DNA from: Tridacna crocea
Lineage: Eukaryota; Mollusca; Bivalvia; Cardiida; Cardiidae
Assembly (NCBI GenBank): GCA_943736015.1
Contig: OX031061.1
Coordinates: forward strand, 59,154,192-59,218,191
Reading direction: 5' to 3'
DNA: 64,000 nucleotides
Shown: positions 6,448 through 63,966 of the stretch, piece after piece
Position numbering within the stretch: the stretch's first letter is position 1
Layout: every line of letters begins with the position of its first letter
The notes under the pieces: model-generated
What the model was told of the DNA's origin: nothing
Databases searched by the model: none
Seen by the model: the letters and a program-made list of their open reading frames with translations, nothing else
Program-made: the position numbers and the translations under genes

Positions 6448-9400
6448 AAAAAGAATGTTTCTTAAAGGAATGAAATCGAATTCGTAAAAAGTATCCTTTT
6501 TGACAAATGCAAAATACTTTTGATCAGTTTATTGATACAATGGTGTTGCTACAGCAACAAATAAACCGTAGCTATTATAAGCCAATCGAAAAATGACGTC
6601 ATTCGGACCTACTTCCACATCACAACGCATAAAGAACTAACCAGTGGGATCGTACATGTAAATTTACGATCCCTGAACTAACCAATCGGATAGTTTCTTT
6701 GAATGACGTATCGCTGATAGACGTCTTTCCTCTGTTGACAACGTTATTCTGTCTTTGTGAGAAGTAAAATTTCAACGAAATAAATTCCTTTGAATCAGCA
6801 AGTGTTTATACAAAATGTTCTCTTTCAAAAAAATATCATTTTTCTTCTATCAATGTTGTATTTGACTTTATGATTAAGGACTAGGTTATTGTTACGCATC
6901 GGCGTGGCCCAGTTTTGATTTCGGAGACCCGTGGAAAGAAAAAAGGTAAATCAGTTGAAATCAAAATATGTGTCACTCTGGCCAGCATAATGTACCGATG
7001 TATAGCCTAGGTTCCAGTCTGATCGCTTCTTTCCGTATATACGAGTATGAACGTTTTAACACGCAGAAAGTTTTAACTTTTTCTTTTGATCGTCACGGTG
7101 CTTAAGGTTCAGCAAGAATTTATAGATAATTAACCCTTAACCGCTCACTTGAAACGACTCTGAAAAGCAAGCTTTTAAAAATATCGAGGGGAGAGGGAAA
7201 ACTGCAATTGGAAACCGGCAGTCTTTTTATTTTACCACAATGTTTCTACCCTATCAAGAACAAATTCCGTCGCTAATTTGGGTCACCCTGAATTTGTCGT
7301 CTACGTTTGAAATTTCTTCGTCAGGTCAAGAATAAACACTTATCGGAATGAATTGTTATCATAATCACTTACTTCCATCATTATTAGAACTGTAATCTTT
7401 ACGTAAAATCACCCATTTATTTTCCTCGAAAGAATTTCCTTCAACTATACATTTTTTCCAAAACTGAACAACACAATGATAAAATTATCTTGACACGAAG
7501 AATCCCACTCTCCTAGAGTGCATCGGAGGTGTTCATAGTTTTTATAAGAACACAGACCAAAGGCCTGAATCTCTGTAACTGTACACGATATATTTACGTT
7601 GAAGTTATCCATAATAAATTGTGTAGAAAAGTTATCTATGTAAAAAAGTCAACAAATTTATCAAGCGTCTAGGGAGAACTCGGAAGAGTCCCTCTAAGCG
7701 TTATTAGAAAATGCGATAAGATACGCTACTGGTTAAAATTTTTACAGTTGCCCCAAAACAGTGTTGTTAGACTAGTGTACAAAATGTTAAAAAAAAGACG
7801 CTGACTCTAATTTCTCGTTTAATAAACTTAATTGGGCCCATCATGTTAAAAAACTTCTTCAATCACTCGGATTCAATAACTTGTGGATAAATCAAGAAAT
7901 TGAATCAATAAACTTTCAGCTTATCAAACAACGCATATATGATCAATATTATCAATCTTGGTACTCAAATATAAACAGCTCTCCACTTCTTCATTATTAC
8001 AGTATTTCCAAGCACTCATTTACACAAGAAAAATATCTCAATTTTATCTCGGACAAAAATCTAAGAATCGCCCTATGATGTAAATTCCGAACTGCGTCTC
8101 ATAACTTAGAAATAGAAACGGGCAGATATCAGAATATTCCTCGAGCAGAAAGAATTTGTAAAGTCTGTACAATGAACGTAACTGAAAGTGACTATCATTT
8201 CTTGTCAGCGTGTCCATTCTATCGAGCTTTACGAAGGCAATTTCTAAAACCATTTTTCTGTCGGTGGCCAACATTGAACAAGTCTGAAATTTTGATGTCT
8301 TCTTCAAATAAAAAGGTTGTATATAACCTGGCAAGGTATATCAACCATGCTATTATGTTAAGACAGGCTTCACTCTCATAATGATAAATCATTGAAATAC
8401 TGATGAAAATGCCGTAAAACCATTATGTTTTCAAAGGTTTTAAATTGTATCAAATATCAATGTTATTCTATATCATTGTGTCTCTCTCTAAGTTTTAAGA
8501 AAACCCTATATAAGTTATAGAGGCATAAGCTGTACATTGTATTCAAATATTTGTGTGCTTGTAAGCAAACAAGTAAATTACGTTATTGCATTTCAAAAGA
8601 TATTTAAATAGATGTATATTGTATAACGTATATATGTTAACTTTGCTGAGTTACGCCGCCTTCTACTTTTCCGTTTTCAGTGGTCATTTGTTGGAGAATA
8701 TTAATTACCATCTCTACTCTACACCTACCTTCGCATGACATATCACCTTTGCCACACTGTTTTTATAAAGAAGCTCCAAAAATCGCATGTTTTCAAAGGC
8801 TTTAATTCGAAAAAATCATAAGATTTTGACTTCTGGATGATTTGTCTCCTTTTGCTGCAATGTTTTCAAAAGCTTAACACAAAAATAGCTCAAAATATAG
8901 TAACCTTTATGTCATCTATTTCCACAATGTTTCCAATAGCTTTTCCTCTGAAAACGCGCACATAGAGATGTTTTCAAAAGTGCTGCTCTAAAGAAAAATA
9001 AAACTATTCCAATCCTGAAACACCTTTTACCACAATGTTTTCAATAGCCTTCCTCTTTAATGAGCGCGAAAAGCACAATATTTTCAAAAGCATTACTCTA
9101 AGAAAGTATAAAAAATCGTTTGTACATACTATTATACAGGCTTTACAAAGTCTCATACTAGATAAGAGAATTTCAAATCTTCCTTATAATGTTAAGTATA
9201 CAGATAAAGTGTTACGGGAGACCACTCCTTCCTGCATGGCATTCTCCCGATTTAAATACAATACCTGGCTACTGCGTCAGGGAGATATCTCTTTGGCTCA
9301 GTGGTTAAGGTATTGGCCTTGCGTCCGGGAGTTCCGGGGTTCGAATCCCGCTTGGTACCTTATTTCTGCCATGCATTTATTCATTTGTTTCTTTGTTACG

Positions 9401-11253
9401 GACTTTGTTCGTAAGATGGGGGCTCGTCCGGGATTGGCCATTGAGCCATTAATCCCATTTGTTGTCCAAAATCGGACTTCCTGCCTAAAAAAAAAAAAAG
9501 GCTTTGAGTCATCAATAAATGATGACTTTAAGAGGGGGTGTGTTACGGGAGACCACTCCTTCCTGCATGGCATTCTCCCGGTTTAAATAAAATACCTGGC
9601 TACTGCGTCAGGGAGATATCTCTTTGGCTCAGTGGTTAAGGTATTGGCCTTGCGTCCGGGAGTTCCGGGGTTCGAATCCCGCTCGGTACCTTATTTCTGC
9701 CATGCATTTATTCATTTGTTTCTTTGTTACGGACTTTGTGCGTAAGAAAAGTTGTATATGCATCTTCTAATTTTCGTTTAAAACAAAAAATCTTAATATA
9801 AAATGAGCAATATTTTTTTTTTCCACAATATGTATATACATACTTGAAAAGCAGCCAGTTTCTAATAAAGATTATTTACAGTGAAGCGTAAGTGTAAAGG
9901 AAATCAAGAGAGCACGAATAAGTACACTTGTCAATTGGATATGGAGTAATATTGAATACCATATAAACACCAGAAAAATAATTCAAACTATTCTCTCAGC
10001 GATAGAATCATCCCAATTTCGCTAAAAAATGGACAAGATCTTCAATCATAACAGGTCACCTGTAATTTTCACTTACAGAATAGCTTCTTTACTCTCTTTC
10101 CCGCTTAATAGTTTTAAGTAAATAAAAAAATCACGTTGACTACTCTGTTGTTTTATCATTGATATTTTGCAAAATGTACATTGTTTACATTGAAGCAAAT
10201 AAAATGTATTATATTATATTGTATTGTATTGTATTGTATTGTGTATTTACGTCGAACAAAGGAATAGGGTGTATCTCAATATTAAGGCAATCATTTTGCT
10301 TTCATGTTTGCCGACAAGCTGAACGTACATTCCGGTTACGCGGGATTAATGAAAGACAAGCGTTAATGTAAATGAACCCTTAAACCGCTTATTACGCCTG
10401 TCTCTTTTGCAGACAAGGCAGATGATTCTATGATTTGCACAGAATATGCAATCTTATGTCGGTCGGACCTGCAGTGTGAGCTATATTGTAATAACCCGAT
10501 TAAAACAGCCCTAGGTGGCGTTGCACTAATTAAGCACTTTTCCCGAAATGTAAAATGTCAATTTCATCAATCCAGCGCTCTAGTATAAGGGTTAACAGAG
10601 TCATAGATTACAAGAATCTTGTAAACGTTCCTTATAGGACTTATGACGTCAACCATCAATTGGTTATCCTTAATAGGATGGTAAACATTGTGAATAACGG
10701 AGAAAATGTTCGTTGCCACTATTTTCTCATGTTCCTACATGGTTTCAAAATACCCTTCCCTTTCTTAAAGGTCATTAAAACTCAGCATTGTAATCTAAAA
10801 GTTACATCTCCGTTTTGAACATTGAAAGTCGTTTGTTTGAGACTCTTTATCAGTCTAGTTATAGTATATTTCAAATAAAATGGTAAACAAATAAAAAAGC
10901 CTTTTAACTGAACGACAAAACTTTGACAACTTCAAGAAGAATGTATATTTACTTTTGAAAAATGAGAAAGCGCTAGTAACCAGTATTTTTTCCCTTTACC
11001 ACTGTGTTTAGTATTTTTCCCAGCCAAACGGCACATTTTCAGCTTCACTTAAATGTGGGTATTTAGGTTTTTCGCATCACACCAAATTAGAAAATATGTA
11101 TATTATTGAAATTCATATGAAAAAAAAAAAAAAAAAACATGAATCATTAATAATTAAGAATGATGATATTACACTCACAAAAAACTTTTTGGGGATGGTA
11201 TTCCCGTAAAAGGCTACGTAGCCCCTTAAGCTATTTTAGATTTCGCGCCAAAA

Positions 11254-11284
<31 letters not shown>

Positions 11285-14200
11285 CATTGTTGGCATCATA
11301 ACATATCAAAAATGTAATTATTTTCCATAATGTCTTCTTAGGACGCTTTGTTTGAAGCTTCGTCTGTGTATTTCCAGTATGTGAATAAGCAAGTTGCATA
11401 GACCTTGTTTCGCGTCGGCGTCGACCTTGGCTGTAGTAAATCTCTAATTTGTCTTGTTGTTGGATGATTTTCGACTACTGGAGTTTTATGAATGAAAATT
11501 ATACGGCTTTGAGAGTATAAAGATTATTTTTTTGTATTTATGTAACATTTTTGGCCCAAAATCTGAAGGGCCACTTCTAACTTATTATCTGCTAATTGCT
11601 TTAATGTAGGGTTTTGTATAGCGTTACTAAGATGGAAAACATTGTGGGGAAGTCAAACAAAATGTTGATTATCATTATTTGCTACTTTTCCTACAATGCT
11701 TTCAAAAGCCTCTTCTTCAACATTATTAGTATCACAGTATTGTGATCTATTGTGATCTAAAAGGCTGAATCTCAGTTTCTATACTCTAAAAGGCACCTTT
11801 CTAGAAACTCCTTGGTCTCTCAATAAAATTATCTCTGGTATAAAACGGTAAAGCCTTTCAAGAAATTAGTCGTCCCGTCACAAAATTACAGTTTTAGACC
11901 TATTAAAACTGATTGTATTTTCAAGCAAAAACTATTCCTTAATCCTTTACCATACCCTATCAAGTATTGTTTTAACAACCCTGAGAAAGATGCCATTTGA
12001 GAACTTTATTTTGAAAAGGAGAAATTTTCTTGACTCTTTACACGAAGTAAAAAAAAAAAAAAAAAAAAAAAAAACAGGCTTTCCGAAATTGAATGCATTT
12101 TAAGGTAGCAACTTTTTGATCTGGCACCATTGATGGAACCTGTCTGAAATAGGATGGAAGAGATTTAAGGAGAAGGAAATAAATGTCTGTTAGCACCGTA
12201 TTCTACTCTTCCGACCAAAATTTAACAAGCCTTCTTCCTAAAGACCTTTTAAACTCATTATTGGGGTAATAAAGGGGTAGATCTAAGTTTCTATACAAAG
12301 ATAAATCGTATACGGGTAACGGTAAATCGAAACCCTTTGCTGTCACATAAATCTTTTCCAATTTTTCCTTCAAATGAATTGGACAGGAGTTTCAGAAAAG
12401 TCCTTTCGTTTTAATCTTTTTTTTTCAACATATTTTCACAAGCCTTCTTCAGGTTTGTTAAAACTCAGGATTGTGAACTGGTCTTCATTGCACAGGATCA
12501 CTGCACAACTCTATAGACTTTGCTGTATCAGGAGAGGCGATTTAAGTACAGGAAAATGTATCGCTTTATATTATGACTATATTCGTAACTCGCCTTCTAA
12601 CAATACTTTCAGAACTTTGATTTTCATAATCCCAACAGTAACTGGACCATTAATTACGTCTGAAGACAATTAATGTTATGAAGCGGAACGTTAACAAATC
12701 CACATTCTACACACCGAATAAGGACACTTGTGCTAGAAGAACTTTTCCTTGAAAAAACGCAGAACATCTGCTAAAATAAGAAATTGAGATGCTCCAGTAT
12801 CACGTAAAATTTTCATAGGGGTAGATTGGGCAAAATAACAAATCGCCTAGTAAGTCACACCTATTTATATCAGCTTGATCGATAAACAGCTATACAAACT
12901 GTTTCTAAGAATAATCACAATGGGAAAAACCAATAAATATTCCTTATGCTTGCAGAATATTCTACAAACTGCAGGTCTCTGTAAATCCTATCTACATAAC
13001 AGTATACATGTAATGGTTTGTACATAGACAAAGCCTTAAATAACTGATGTAAACTTCCGTTTGATTAGCACTTCTCCCTCTGAAATTTTGTCGAATGTTA
13101 AGGTTTTATGACCATGTTTTAAAAATACACTAAGACAAAGCGGTATTTTAGTTTAAACATATTTTATTCATCAATTACATATAAATACAAAGATCTAAAG
13201 AGAAATCAACAAATTAACAAACAATAACTGACGAAATGGATCAGAACGAAAGCTAGGCTTATATTGTTCTTCTCCAAAATTTCAGGTACACAGTTACAGG
13301 TTGATAACGTAATAAAAAATCATAATGGTATTTTGATTGCTATTGAAAGAAAACCGTGGGAAAGAAAAACAGAACAGGAAAATAAGCTAAAAAATAAGCT
13401 GAATTATAAGCTGAATTGGTGTGGAGTGTTTCACTGTGGGAACGGGGAGGAAATTTTCGCAAACAATTGACCTCCTCCATGACCATCACATATCAAGCGG
13501 TATTTTGATTTTATTCAAACGTATATATACGTTCAAATCACATAAAAGATGTTTCGTCTTCATTCGAATATGTTACTTGTACTCTAATTTGATTTGTAAG
13601 ATATGATCTTTAATGGTACAAACACTATCTATTTTTATCATATTTGTTTTTCTTGCCAGCTCCAACCGGCTGTGGTATTCTTTACAAGGGACCTAAAAGG
13701 ATAAAACCTGGTGACGAAGTAGTGCTGAAATATCACCGAACACAAAGAGACGAATATATTCGACAACTTAGAGTTAAAACCGACGATTGTGCGGAGCAAT
13801 TTGGCTGTCCAGTTAACGAAGCGTGGTACGAGGAAGAGTCTACAGAGTACAGTTCCATGTACTTATATAAATTCAGGAACTTTTCGTCCGAAATGGAAGG
13901 GAACTATCTCATCCAATGTACAAATAGGTCAAGTCATAACAATGCCACCAACGATGTCAAGCTTATTATACCAGGTTTGAGTGAAATCTATACGCTCATT
14001 AAGCGAATATTAATCAATGAAAATTAATTTCATTTTATATTACTATGTACTATTACTCTATATCCACTTATTCGACCAGCCTTGTCTCTACTCTCTTTTC
14101 TCAGACAGTTTTACCATTTCTCGATCAAAACAAATATCTTAATAACTAAAAACGAAAAAAAGAATGGCAGAAATAGTGACTAGAATATCCTTTCGTATAT

Positions 14201-32200: not shown

Positions 32201-35200
32201 TGAATGCATTTTAAGGTATAAACTTTTTGATCTGGCACCATTGATGGAACCTGTCTGAAATAGGATGGAAGACATTTAAGGAGAAAGAAAAACATGTCAG
32301 TTAGCACCGTATTCTCCTCTTCAGACCAAAGGTTAACAAGTCTTCTTCCTAAAGACATTTTAAACTCATTATTGGGGTAATAAAGGGGTAGATCTAAGTT
32401 TCTATACAAAGATAAATCGTATACGGGTAACGGTAAATCAAAACCCTTTGCTGTCACATAATTTTTTTCCAATTTTTCCTTCAATTGAATTGGACAAGAG
32501 TTTCAGAAAAGTCCTTTCGTTTTAATCTTTTTTTTCGACCTATTTTGACAAGCCTTCTTCAAGTTTGTTGAAACTCAGGATGGTGAACTGGCCTTCATTG
32601 CACAGGATCATTGCACAACTCTATAGACTTTGCTGTATCAGGAGAGGCGATTTAAGTACAGGAAAATGTATCGCAATATGTTATGACTATATTCTAAACT
32701 CGCCTTCTAACAGTACTTTCAGAACTTTGATTTTCCTAATCACAACAGTCACTGGACCATTAATTAAGTCTGAAGACAAATAAACGTTATGAAGCGGAAC
32801 CTTAACAATTCCACATTCTACACACCGAATAAGGACACTTGTGCTAGAAGAACTCTTCCTTGAAAAAAACGCAGAACATCTGCTAAAATAAGAGATTGAG
32901 AAGCTCCAGTATCACGTAAATTTTTCATAGGGGTAGACTGGGCGAAATAACAAATCACTTAGTAAGTCACTTCTATATATAACAGCTTGGAAAATTCTAG
33001 ACAAGAAAATATTGATGCAGAACATCAATGGCGCCGCAAACCAGTTATTTCTGTAACAGGGCAAAAAGCATTGGGCCGCGTTAAACCGTTTATAGAAATA
33101 ACGTGATCGTTTGACAGCTCAGTAGGAATCACATTTTTGATCGTGTGACTCATTTTGTCACGTTTAACATCCAATAATAGCATATGTGGAGAAAATCGTC
33201 GCCCTTGTAAGATTTTGTCTACACAAACAAACATTTGTCGCCAATGAATTATCATACATTAACGAAAGATAAAGTCTGTTATCGGATGTACTAAATCTGA
33301 TACTCTAACACATATGTCTGGTATCATACAACCCCTCTTTATAGATATTTTAAAGACTTGAATGAAGTTCTTATTATATCTATAAAGACAAGAGGAGTTG
33401 TATGATACCAGTCATGTCAGGCGCTCCAGCACTGACCTAGTTACAGTTAGCTGGTCTTAAAAGCTCGATCGCGAAAGGAAAACAATATTTCTACAATCCA
33501 TACAATACTAGAACAAAAATATAATTGGGGTCACAAGTACCTCATAGGGTGCTCTAGGGTCAAAGAGCTTGAAAATACCTCTTAACCTTTTCCAGCGTAG
33601 GATATTTAAAATGGTGACTTAGAAAATTTCAAACAGATAATTTTTTATCACGTGACTTCTCGAAATGCATCTTTATTATTTTTCGAAGGGAAAATGTTGA
33701 TATGCCTACGATCCCGGTTTTTATCCATCTAACAATGAAAGTACAATATATTACAAATGAAAAAAAAAATCCCACAAATAAATAAAAAAGTTAATATGGA
33801 TCCCGATCTGGTAATCAAAGTACAGTAGATATAGATGGATGTCAAAACAAAGCATGGAACCAGTTCAATATGGCTACACCCATAGGCACTTTACAAAACC
33901 GAATAAAAATATAGTGCCGCCGCTCAAGCGGCGCCACAATTAGTAAACAGCTATACAAACTGTTTCTAAAAATAACCACAATGGGAAAAACCAATAAATA
34001 TTCCTTATGCTTGCAGAATATTCTACAAACTGCAGGTCTCTGTAAATCCTATCTACATAACAGTATACATGTAATGGGTTGTACATAGACAAAACCTTAA
34101 ATAACTGATGTAAACTCCCGTTTGATTAGCAATTCTACGTCAGAAATTCTGCTGAATTTTAAGATTTTATGAGCATGTTTTAAAAATACACAAAGACAAA
34201 GCGGTATTTTGATTTTATTCAAAAGTATATGTACGTCCTAAAAAAGGATGTTTCGTCTTCATTCGAATATGTTACTTGTACTCTAATTTGATTTGTAAGA
34301 TATGATCTTTAAGGGTACAAAAACTACCTATTGTTATCATATTTGTTTTTCTTGGCAGCTCCAACCGGCTGTGGTATTCTTTACAAGGGACCAGAAAGGA
34401 TAAGACCTGGTGGCGAAGTGGTACTGAAATATCACCAAACAAAAGGAGACGAAAATAATCGACAACTTAGAGTTAAAACTGACGATTGTGCGGGGCAATT
34501 TGGCTGTCCAGTTAACGAAGCTTGGTACGAGGAAGAGTCTGCAGAGTACAATTCCATGTACTTGTATAAATTCAAGAACTTTTCGTCCAAAATGGAAGGG
34601 AACTATCTCATCCAGTGTACAAATAGGTCAAGTCATAACAATGCCACCAACGATGTCAAGCTTATTATACCAGGTTTGAGTGAAATCTACACGCTCATTA
34701 AGCGAATAGTTTAGTTTAGTTTAAACATATTTTGTTGCCAAGCACTTTACAAGAATAAAATTTACAACACAGAACAATAAACATAATGAAAGGACAAGGC
34801 AAAAGGGTCTGAATACAAATTCTCTCAACTTAGATTCGGTCATTCCCTTTATGAAATTACCTTTTTTTTGAGTCGCCCATATTTACTTTTGACTTTCTAA
34901 TATGCACTAAGTTTTCATTTCATTTTTGACGACAAATTTGTTCCAGTTACGCACTAACATCGAAATGGCAATTGATAAATTGATAAATCGAGTTGGAGTT
35001 GAAAATAGGAATTTCTTCTATTCAAATAAAAGAAAATGAAGGATTTTACATTTTAACTAAATGATTACTGTAGATTAATCGTAGGTCGGTGGGGTTCCAA
35101 GATCCGGGCGAATTGGTCAAATAATTATTGTTTGCTGCTTCAGGATTACTTGCATCGTCCTGTATCTTTTATATAAGTTTGTACAGTCCTTAATATCAAT

Positions 35201-60131: not shown

Positions 60132-60579
60132 TCTTACGAACAATTTCCGAAAGGCCAATACCTTAACCACTGAGCCAAAGAGATATCTCCTTGACGCAGT
60201 AGTCAGGTATTGTATTTAAATGCATGAAGGAGTGATCTCCCGTAACACACCCCCTCTTAAAGTTATCATTTATTGATGACTCAAAACCTTATTAGGCAGA
60301 AAGTCAATTTTTGGACAACAAACTGGATTAACGGCTCACTGGCCAATCCCGGACGAGCCCCCATCTTACGAACATTGACCGTAAGAGAGAAACAAATGAA
60401 TAAATGCATGGCAAAAATAAGGGACCGAGCACGATTCGAACCCCAGAACTCCTGGACGAGTGGCCAATACCTTAACCACTGAGCCAAAGAGATATTTCCT
60501 AGTGGCAGTAGTCAGGTACATGTATTGTATTTAAATCGGGACAAAGCCATGCATGAAGGAGTGGTCTCCCGTGATAACA
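60132..60579 (-). mobile_element. LTR mini-retrotransposon, copy C (degenerate)
   Basis: Third copy, minus strand. The 5' LTR at 60364-60579 has small insertions; the primer-binding-site complement at 60346-60363 is intact; the 3' LTR (60132-60247) has lost about 90 bp including the B-box region. No matching target duplication was found, so it is older or was rearranged after insertion. Confidence 0.75.
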
Positions 60580-61038: not shown

Positions 61039-62355
61039 TAAATTATTGCAAAACTCGTTGCGATGACAGGAACTTTATTACATTTGACTTCACAACCAGT
61101 TTTGCAATAAAATCGAGAATTGCAACAAACTCATTATATGGACCATATTTGATCGTTTTCTAGTCAAACCAAATTCAAATACAATTTAATGTTAAATGGG
61201 ACTATGTAAGACCTTAATTAAGTTACAGAAAGTGCGCTTCAAAGATCAGTAGGAACATTTCACGGTAAACACTATTAAGGCAAATAGATGGAGAGAAAAA
61301 GAAGAAAAAAATGCACTCCGTGGGATTCGAACCCATGAGCTCGAGCGCAGATATTAAGGAACTGGCGCTCTACCGACTGCGCTTCAGGACAGTCACGACC
61401 GTAACGGTACCAGTAATATATAAAGTCTTACAGATGTCTCCGAAAGTTTGTAAAATGCCCCTTTGGCGTAAGATCATGCGATAACGTGCACAGCAGGTGA
61501 AAGTAGACACAAAGACAAATTTGTAAAATGCCACTTAGGCGTAAGACAATGCGATAACGTGCACAGGAGGTGAATTAGACACAAAGACAAGAAAAAATAT
61601 CAGTCATTGATCAATAACACGATCAGTGATAAATAATTTGATTTTTGTATGATAGATAAACAGCTGTAGGTAGTGTTTGCTTCGTTTGGGTATTTATTGA
61701 GGAACTATACTACTCAACTTTTGCTAAGCATCAGAAGTTTTTTTTTATATTATTACAAGTATAAAACAGATTTCTTTCCAATTTTTGAAAATTATGATTC
61801 AGCAATGTTTTGAGAAAGTCCCCCGACATGAATCCGTGTAGACTAATCCGTTACAACTCGTCCAGGTAGCATGGGAAGCATGCACCCGTACATTTTCATG
61901 TTTTTTATGGTCCATATAATGAGTTTGTTGCAATTCGCGTTTTTATTGCAAAACTGGTTGTGAAGTCAAAAGTAATAAAGTTCCTGTCATCGCAACGAGT
62001 CTTGCAATAATTTACTGCAATACTGGTTTCAAACATATTGTTTCTTGAACGATCCAAATTTCATGCTGTTTACCTCGTCTAATAGACTTTATGACAGTTT
62101 CCAATGATTTCAGCGTTAATAGTGTTTAGCCTGAAATGTTCCTACTGGTCTTTGAAGCGCACTTTCTGTAACTTAATTTACGTCTTACATAGTCCCATTT
62201 AACATTAAATTGTATTTAATTTGGTTTTGACTAGAAAACGATCAAATATGGTCCATATAAAGAGGTTGTTGCAATTCTCGTTTTTATTGCAAAACTGGTT
62301 GTGAAGTCAAATGTAATAAAGTTCCTGTCATCGCAACGAGTTTTGCAATAATTTA
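61039..62355. mobile_element. foldback element with 239-nt inverted arms
   Basis: Arms 61039-61277 and 62117-62355 are reverse complements with few mismatches, running from AAATTATTGCAAAACTCGTT to AGTGTTTA. A third partial arm lies at about 61908-62030. The loop contains a tRNA-like stretch (61317-61393) and a two-unit repeat of about 73 bp (61446-61590). No transposase frame. Confidence 0.78.
61317..61393 (-). repeat. tRNA-like sequence (SINE head or tRNA relic)
   Basis: On the minus strand a D-arm-like GCGCAGTCGGTAGAGCGC and a B box GGGTTCGAATCCC are clear, but the acceptor ends (CTGTCCTG against GGAGTGC) do not pair. It is most likely a tRNA-derived SINE head or a decayed tRNA gene. Confidence 0.55.
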
Positions 62356-62827: not shown

Positions 62828-62920
62828 GATTTCATGGCTGAGTGGTAAACTGCAGGGAATCTTAAAGTAGAGGTTCTAGGTTCGAGCCTCAGTGTACGCA
62901 TTGAATTTTTTAAGGGAATT
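62828..62920 (+). repeat. tRNA-like SINE head
   Basis: ATGGCTGAGTGGTAAA (A box) and AGGTTCGAGCCTC (B box) lie about 40 nt apart. Leu/Ser-like in style, but stems are imperfect and no second copy is present in the window. Confidence 0.5.
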
Positions 62921-63438: not shown

Positions 63439-63966
63439 TCTTACGAACGAAGTCCGTAACAAAGAAACAAATGAATAAATGCATGGCAGAAATAAGGATC
63501 GGAGCGGGATTCGAACTCCGAACTCCCGGACGCAAAGCCAATACCCTAACCACTGAGCCAAAGAGATATCTCCCTGACGCAGTAGCCAGGTATTGTATTT
63601 AAATCGGGAGTATGCCATGCAGGAAGGAGTGGTCTCCCATAACACACCCCCTCTTAAAGTCATCATTTATTGATGACTCAAAGCCTTATTAGGCAGGAAG
63701 TCCGATTTTGGACAACAAATGGGATTAATGGCTCAATGGCCAATCCCGGACGAGCCCCCATCTTACGAACGAAGTCCGTAACAAAGAAACAAATGAATAA
63801 ATGCATGGCAGAAATAAGGATCGGAGCGGGATTCGAACTCCGAACTCCCGGACGCAAAGCCAATACCCGAACCACTGAGCCAAAGAGATATCTCCCTGAC
63901 GCAGTAGCCAGGTATTGTATTTAAATCGGGAGTATGCCATGCAGGAAGGAGTGGTCTCCCATAACA
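63439..63966 (-). mobile_element. LTR mini-retrotransposon, copy B (young)
   Basis: Same family on the minus strand. LTRs at 63439-63644 and 63761-63966 (206 bp each) show one difference by eye, so insertion was recent. The primer-binding site complement is at 63743-63760 and the polypurine tract is next to the 3' LTR at about 63645-63656. A perfect 4-bp TTAT duplication lies at 63435-63438 and 63967-63970. The A/B boxes are intact in both LTRs, and no AAAA (a minus-strand terminator) occurs inside the element. Confidence 0.9.

Follow-up and report, generated by a model that had tools for sequence, protein, structure and literature searches.

A Helenus-type TRIM of Tridacna crocea with tRNA-like promoter boxes in its LTRs, and a gypsy family as its candidate helper

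The element described here, present in three copies in the window (the whole 64,000-nt stretch of Tridacna crocea DNA that was analysed), is quite likely a Helenus-type TRIM whose RNA would be driven by tRNA-like A and B boxes, presumably through Pol III, and which would be mobilised in trans by a gypsy family with the domain order of Gmr1. This reading draws on the structure of the element, its 4-bp target duplications, its young copies, the primer-binding site (PBS) and LTR tips that it has in common with those gypsy elements, head-to-head joints between R-U5 pieces (R-R joints) and two copies that are chimeric with that family.

Copy A, 538 bp long and devoid of coding sequence, consists of two 207-bp LTRs with 4 mismatches between them and a 124-bp interior (Table 1), which confirms the mini LTR element that the initial annotation had proposed at 9210..9747. 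The three copies that it counted were all retrieved by BLAST in the window; the LTRs of copy B (206 bp) differ by 1 mismatch, and copy C is broken: a T5 lies downstream of the 5' B box, and the 3' LTR lacks a B box altogether. Likewise, the duplications flanking two of the copies, the PBS, the polypurine tract (PPT) and both promoter boxes were found where that annotation had placed them. The PBS, which we take to be of the tRNA-Pro type, and the PPT stand at the two ends of the interior, as in Helenus, and GAGGGGGTG serves as the PPT in 27 of 30 loci. A 30-nt stretch around the A box occurs 6 times in the window and was never found in 100 shuffles.

Table 1. Coordinates of the element copies and their features in the window.
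Feature	Position	Strand	Remarks
Left target duplication AAAG	9206..9209	+	copy A
5' LTR, TGTTACG...CGTAAGA	9210..9416	+	copy A
TATA-like motif TTTAAATA, LTR 42-49	9251..9258	+	in 26/30 loci
Palindrome GAGATATCTC, LTR 73-82	9282..9291	+	centre of R-R joints; suggested RNA 5' end
A box TGGCTCAGTGG, LTR 85-95	9294..9304	+	copy A, 5' LTR
B box GGTTCGAATCC, LTR 129-139	9338..9348	+	copy A, 5' LTR
PBS, 18 nt, start of interior	9417..9434	+	copy A
AATAAA ahead of 3' LTR	9514..9519	+	interior; in 30/30 loci
PPT AAGAGGGGGTG, end of interior	9530..9540	+	copy A
3' LTR	9541..9747	+	copy A; A box 9625-9635, B box 9669-9679
Right target duplication AAAG	9748..9751	+	copy A
Copy B, complete	63439..63966	-	93.7% identity to copy A; duplication ATAA/ATAA
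Copy C, older and broken	60148..60572	-	85% identity to copy A

Elsewhere in the window two further tRNA-like stretches were noticed by eye, at about 61310-61410 (minus strand; followed by a T-run and possibly the head of a tRNA-derived SINE) and about 62850-62910 (plus strand). Two near-identical open frames some 20 kb apart (13644-14027 and 34331-34714) are likely duplicated exons, for which one protein search returned no relatives.

The element has been active recently. Searching the genome (1.049 Gb in 31 contigs) with a 48-nt probe made of PBS and leader gave 2414 matches at no more than 3 mismatches and 0 with the reversed control, and the 59-nt tRNA-like core of copy A gave 418, part of them within a larger repeat. 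The extracted loci included 50 LTR-interior-LTR units, flanks being present for 49; tandem arrays hold 9 of these, and an exact 4-bp target duplication borders 34 of the 40 non-tandem units, two of which derive from one duplicated locus with identical flanks. The LTR pair is identical in 15 of the 49 flanked units; since a locus entered the set through its best match, a perfect core or a perfect primer site, the set is biased to young copies. Tandem arrays of LTR and interior were seen at L004/L005, L011, L018, L052/L053, L054 and L064.

Two leads to other partners were abandoned. A long element bearing the same tRNA-containing LTR had been suspected at 14 of the 30 loci whose tRNA-like core is perfect, and was ruled out when the upstream sequence proved common to all 14, these loci belonging to a larger repeat with a frozen piece of Helenus. 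This repeat (L013, L015, L016, L019, L023-L028, L030, L033, L034, L038 and L069-L076) exceeds 3.3 kb and ends ...GGGGCTTTAA; the frozen piece comprises an LTR, the primer site and the leader, and the shared block of the repeat stops at one point about 1.9 kb downstream in 8/8 loci followed, two of which share the flank as well. The second lead, a partner that would combine this PPT and LTR start with a different LTR, yielded 184 matches, the 100 listed being one variant, and 11 of the 14 listed on C1 adjoin a listed Helenus primer site in a by-eye comparison.

The promoter boxes were compared in 60 full LTRs from loci selected by primer site. Of these, 58 have an exact A box and 59 the B-box core GTTCGAATCC; position 1 of the B box is mostly A, and GGTTCGAATCC itself occurs in 10 of the 60. 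The box conservation anticipated by the initial annotation is borne out in this set; as the copies are so alike, it is weak evidence. Mean minor-allele frequencies in these 60 LTRs were 0.003 for the A box, 0.008 for the palindrome GAGATATCTC, 0.013 for the TATA-like motif, 0.018 for the B box and 0.023 for the whole LTR; the A box is among the least variable parts, while the whole B box varies about as much as the LTR. The claim that no T4 follows the 5' B box up to the end of copy A also stood, as it did for one B-to-B turn of both copies A and B. In copy A this turn spans 331 nt and contains 11 T-runs of at least three, none of them a T4; dinucleotide shuffles of the turn were T4-free in 46/10000 cases for copy A and 125/10000 for copy B. 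Across the family, T4 follows the B box inside the LTR in 0 of 59 cases, and of the 28 loci (from 30 chosen by primer site) in which both a B box and the end of the 3' LTR could be located, 27 meet their first T4 only past the 3' LTR. The R-U5 region is free of AATAAA and ATTAAA in 30/30 loci, whereas the interior carries AATAAA in every one of them, 27 nt ahead of the 3' LTR in 29; another AATAAA, a point against the Pol III reading, is found in the U3 of copy A's own 3' LTR. A Pol II transcript would meet the interior signal before reaching the second R. The missing T4, the R-U5 without poly(A) signals and the interior AATAAA together favour Pol III.

A Pol II-driven TRIM, with TTTAAATA starting the RNA at about LTR 73 and the tRNA-like part carried along as an old SINE passenger, is the alternative to be weighed here, and we regard it as unlikely. 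It can invoke the TATA-like motif, which lies about 31 nt upstream of the suggested start in 26/30 loci and fits either polymerase, the whole B box being no better conserved than the LTR, and an element RNA whose folding gave no tRNA shape. These points have to be set against the lack of T4, the distribution of poly(A) signals just described and the low variability of the A box, all of which argue against this alternative. The tools used for tRNA detection called no functional tRNA in the element.

An autonomous partner that has this PBS and similar LTR ends had been proposed as something to look for, and a candidate family of gypsy elements was found. The primer site followed by a different leader occurs at 14 places in the genome; of the five that were read, three are Helenus copies carrying one inserted nucleotide, and the other two (L080 and L081) run into a reading frame that begins MSFDLDKFTAEPSVELLNLGKKTDL. 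This coding start has 819 genome matches. Four ordinary copies were read upstream: in 4/4 the LTR ends CGTAACA and is followed by a 5-nt spacer, and the primer region is identical to that of Helenus at 21/21 bases. The LTR begins TGTTATG, after AAAGGGGGAAG, and the tips of both elements are near-identical (TGTTAYG...CGTAASA). It measures 562 bp in the one copy measured, with TATAAA at 201 and AATAAA at 495, and its body is unrelated to the Helenus LTR; the PPTs differ too. Profile searches scored 150 of 1968 candidates for the integrase zinc finger (PF17921) and 150 of 2048 for RT_RNaseH_2 (PF17919). At least 60 of the 100 listed coding starts have PF17921 in the same orientation 2.05-2.36 kb downstream, and at least 36 of the 100 have PF17919 4.0-5.5 kb downstream; the first 56 residues gave no Pfam match. 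Open frames of at least 1500 aa are found in 31 of 60 copies with a PF17921 match, and L081 has an integrase match of its own 2.1 kb downstream. Integrase upstream of RT/RNase H is the order described for Gmr1-like gypsy elements (PMC8220671, PMC6238403, PMC3587641, in the parts available).

This abundant gypsy family is a likely candidate for the helper of the Helenus-type TRIM. That the true helper is some other family, with L080 and L081 formed by chance between elements that have no more than their primer tRNA in common, seems rather improbable. The unrelated LTR bodies and different PPTs would be in keeping with it, just two chimeras were read, and a related family could have the same features; against it stand the matching primer region and LTR tips, the abundance of the candidate together with its long open frames, and the consideration that a cDNA chimera in itself requires a shared space.

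L039, L080 and L081 start with an inverted R-U5 fused to a direct R-U5 at GAGATATCTC. We searched the genome for such joints with exact 14-nt arms and 0-30 nt between them, a design that covers about 12 nt upstream of LTR 73 through LTR 82, and found head-to-head R-U5 joints at LTR 73-82 in 48 loci. The arms are 6 nt apart in 42, 4 nt in 4 and 2 nt in 2; the palindrome is perfect at 37, and none of the 48 shows U3 sequence, of which up to 12 nt per arm was detectable. The opposite U3-U3 joint, sought with the same design, was found at 2 loci, at the same palindrome (G000:C1:32118570 and G000:C14:41426301); the asymmetry of 48 versus 2 has P ~7e-9 after correction for the arms, of which one is exact in 57 and the other in 46 of 60 LTRs. 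Sequence past the joint was read for 6 of the 48, namely L039, L080 and four or five small-window loci. C1:22590558 is a bare R-U5 dimer with the tips TTCGTAAGA at both ends and AGAC/AGAC flanks, and at C6:12892217 the primer site and Helenus leader continue on both sides. Two clean tips are absent at 3/5 small-window loci (C2:24630022, C7:7042177 and C1:66173143); at G000:C7:7042177 one host repeat stands in inverted orientation on both joint flanks. L039 continues into Helenus, with TTTT on both sides only if the last LTR base is counted as mutated. The joints of L080 and L081, chimeras read from their left ends, lead into helper sequence; ACTA stands at the left of L081, and its guessed right end held unrelated sequence. 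The helper match of L080 sets in at position 231 of the helper LTR, 30 nt past the start of TATAAA and hence near where the helper RNA would be expected to start. At L080 600-646 the helper LTR is fused to the coding start without U5, primer site or leader, and the letters that follow the PBS in L080 recur at a second place, C17:2739510.

That these joints are DNA rearrangements at the palindrome, through replication slippage or hairpin repair, and not cDNA products is very unlikely, for although they sit on a 10-bp palindrome, two U3-U3 joints do occur and clean tips are missing at some, such events would produce both kinds of joint alike, and neither the bare dimer with U5 tips and duplicated flanks, nor the TTTT on both sides of L039 (with its last LTR base taken as mutated), nor the joints on helper sequence speak for them.

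Read as cDNA products, the joints point to LTR 73-77, 8-12 nt before the A box, as the likely 5' end of the RNA, with the proviso that trimming of the cDNA 3' end could mask a start further upstream than LTR 73. Such a 5' end would suit Pol III, and also Pol II acting from the TATA-like motif. The two joints that enter helper sequence further suggest that Helenus and helper cDNAs shared a particle.

A mechanism that accommodates these observations can be proposed. Transcription from the tRNA-like A and B boxes, presumably carried out by Pol III, would probably start at LTR 73-77, would read through the whole element because T4 is absent, and would end at the first T-run in the flank. A tRNA bound at the PBS would prime cDNA synthesis, and gypsy enzymes would copy and insert the element in trans. 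Minus-strand strong-stop cDNA would stop at the RNA 5' end; with a start at LTR 73-77 its 3' end would be self-complementary, and two strong-stop cDNAs could anneal at GAGATATCTC and extend each other into a duplex with a U5 tip at each end, the putative source of the joints. Copying of the tRNA as well would leave a primer site at the end of the product, as in plus-strand strong-stop DNA, and the product could then be transferred to whichever cDNA in the particle carries the same site. All three kinds of dimer, those standing alone, those on Helenus and those on the helper, would follow from this single route. We give an even chance to this full version, in which Helenus would be a Pol III-transcribed satellite of a Gmr1-like gypsy element, and its palindrome dimers, with integrase-competent U5 tips at both ends, would insert alone, cap other Helenus cDNAs and replace the 5' ends of helper cDNAs.

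TRIMs with tRNA-like sequence in their LTRs were named Helenus in 2024 and recorded in six animal phyla, fungi and a plant (Kojima 2024, PMC10886601). According to the main text of that paper, they have two LTRs, no coding sequence and a length under about 1000 bp (the longest 1263), and their use of Pol III is called unproven. Therefore, the Tridacna element belongs to a known kind and not to a new one: of the initial interpretation, the TRIM with a tRNA-type LTR promoter, no internal T4 and a partner stands, whereas its novelty in an animal does not. It resembles the animal Helenus of that text in its tRNA-like LTR, A and B boxes, PBS, PPT and 4-bp duplications, and tRNA-Pro is among the primers named there for bivalve families; tandem arrays are described in one family. 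The Tridacna family may be an additional one or one that Kojima already listed. A gypsy partner was presumed there, animal families being tied to gypsy solely through the primer site, and for TRIMp3 partners it was argued that tips and primer site are common and the promoter is not, which our candidate helper fits on all three points. Unlike the Helenus described in the main text of PMC10886601, the present family offers a tip-matched helper, helper chimeras and R-R joints. Cassandra shares a Pol III-type LTR promoter, the TRIM format and tandem arrays, but is a plant element with a 5S rRNA-derived promoter and conserved LTR terminators in the texts available, whereas the present one is tRNA-like and T4-free (PMC10886601, PMC7215508). 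In the window no Rfam match reached the gathering score, and 5S was absent from the weak-match list. The biv-TRIM is likewise a short TRIM in molluscs, but the accessible text does not identify a canonical PBS or name a Pol III promoter (PMC6934838). A 2026 meeting report, in its available part, restates Helenus and adds nothing further. Our literature search, with subscription journals mostly outside its scope, found no such gypsy helper, helper chimeras, R-R joints or integrated strong-stop dimers.

This genome thus provides, from DNA alone, a tip-matched helper candidate, chimeric copies and a suggested RNA 5' end. For the question of how an LTR element of Pol II type mobilises an RNA of Pol III type, named loci and simple tests now exist. 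If the proposed route is true, the dimers would form a distinct class of insertions, through which genomic DNA keeps a record of where RNAs start and of their co-packaging.
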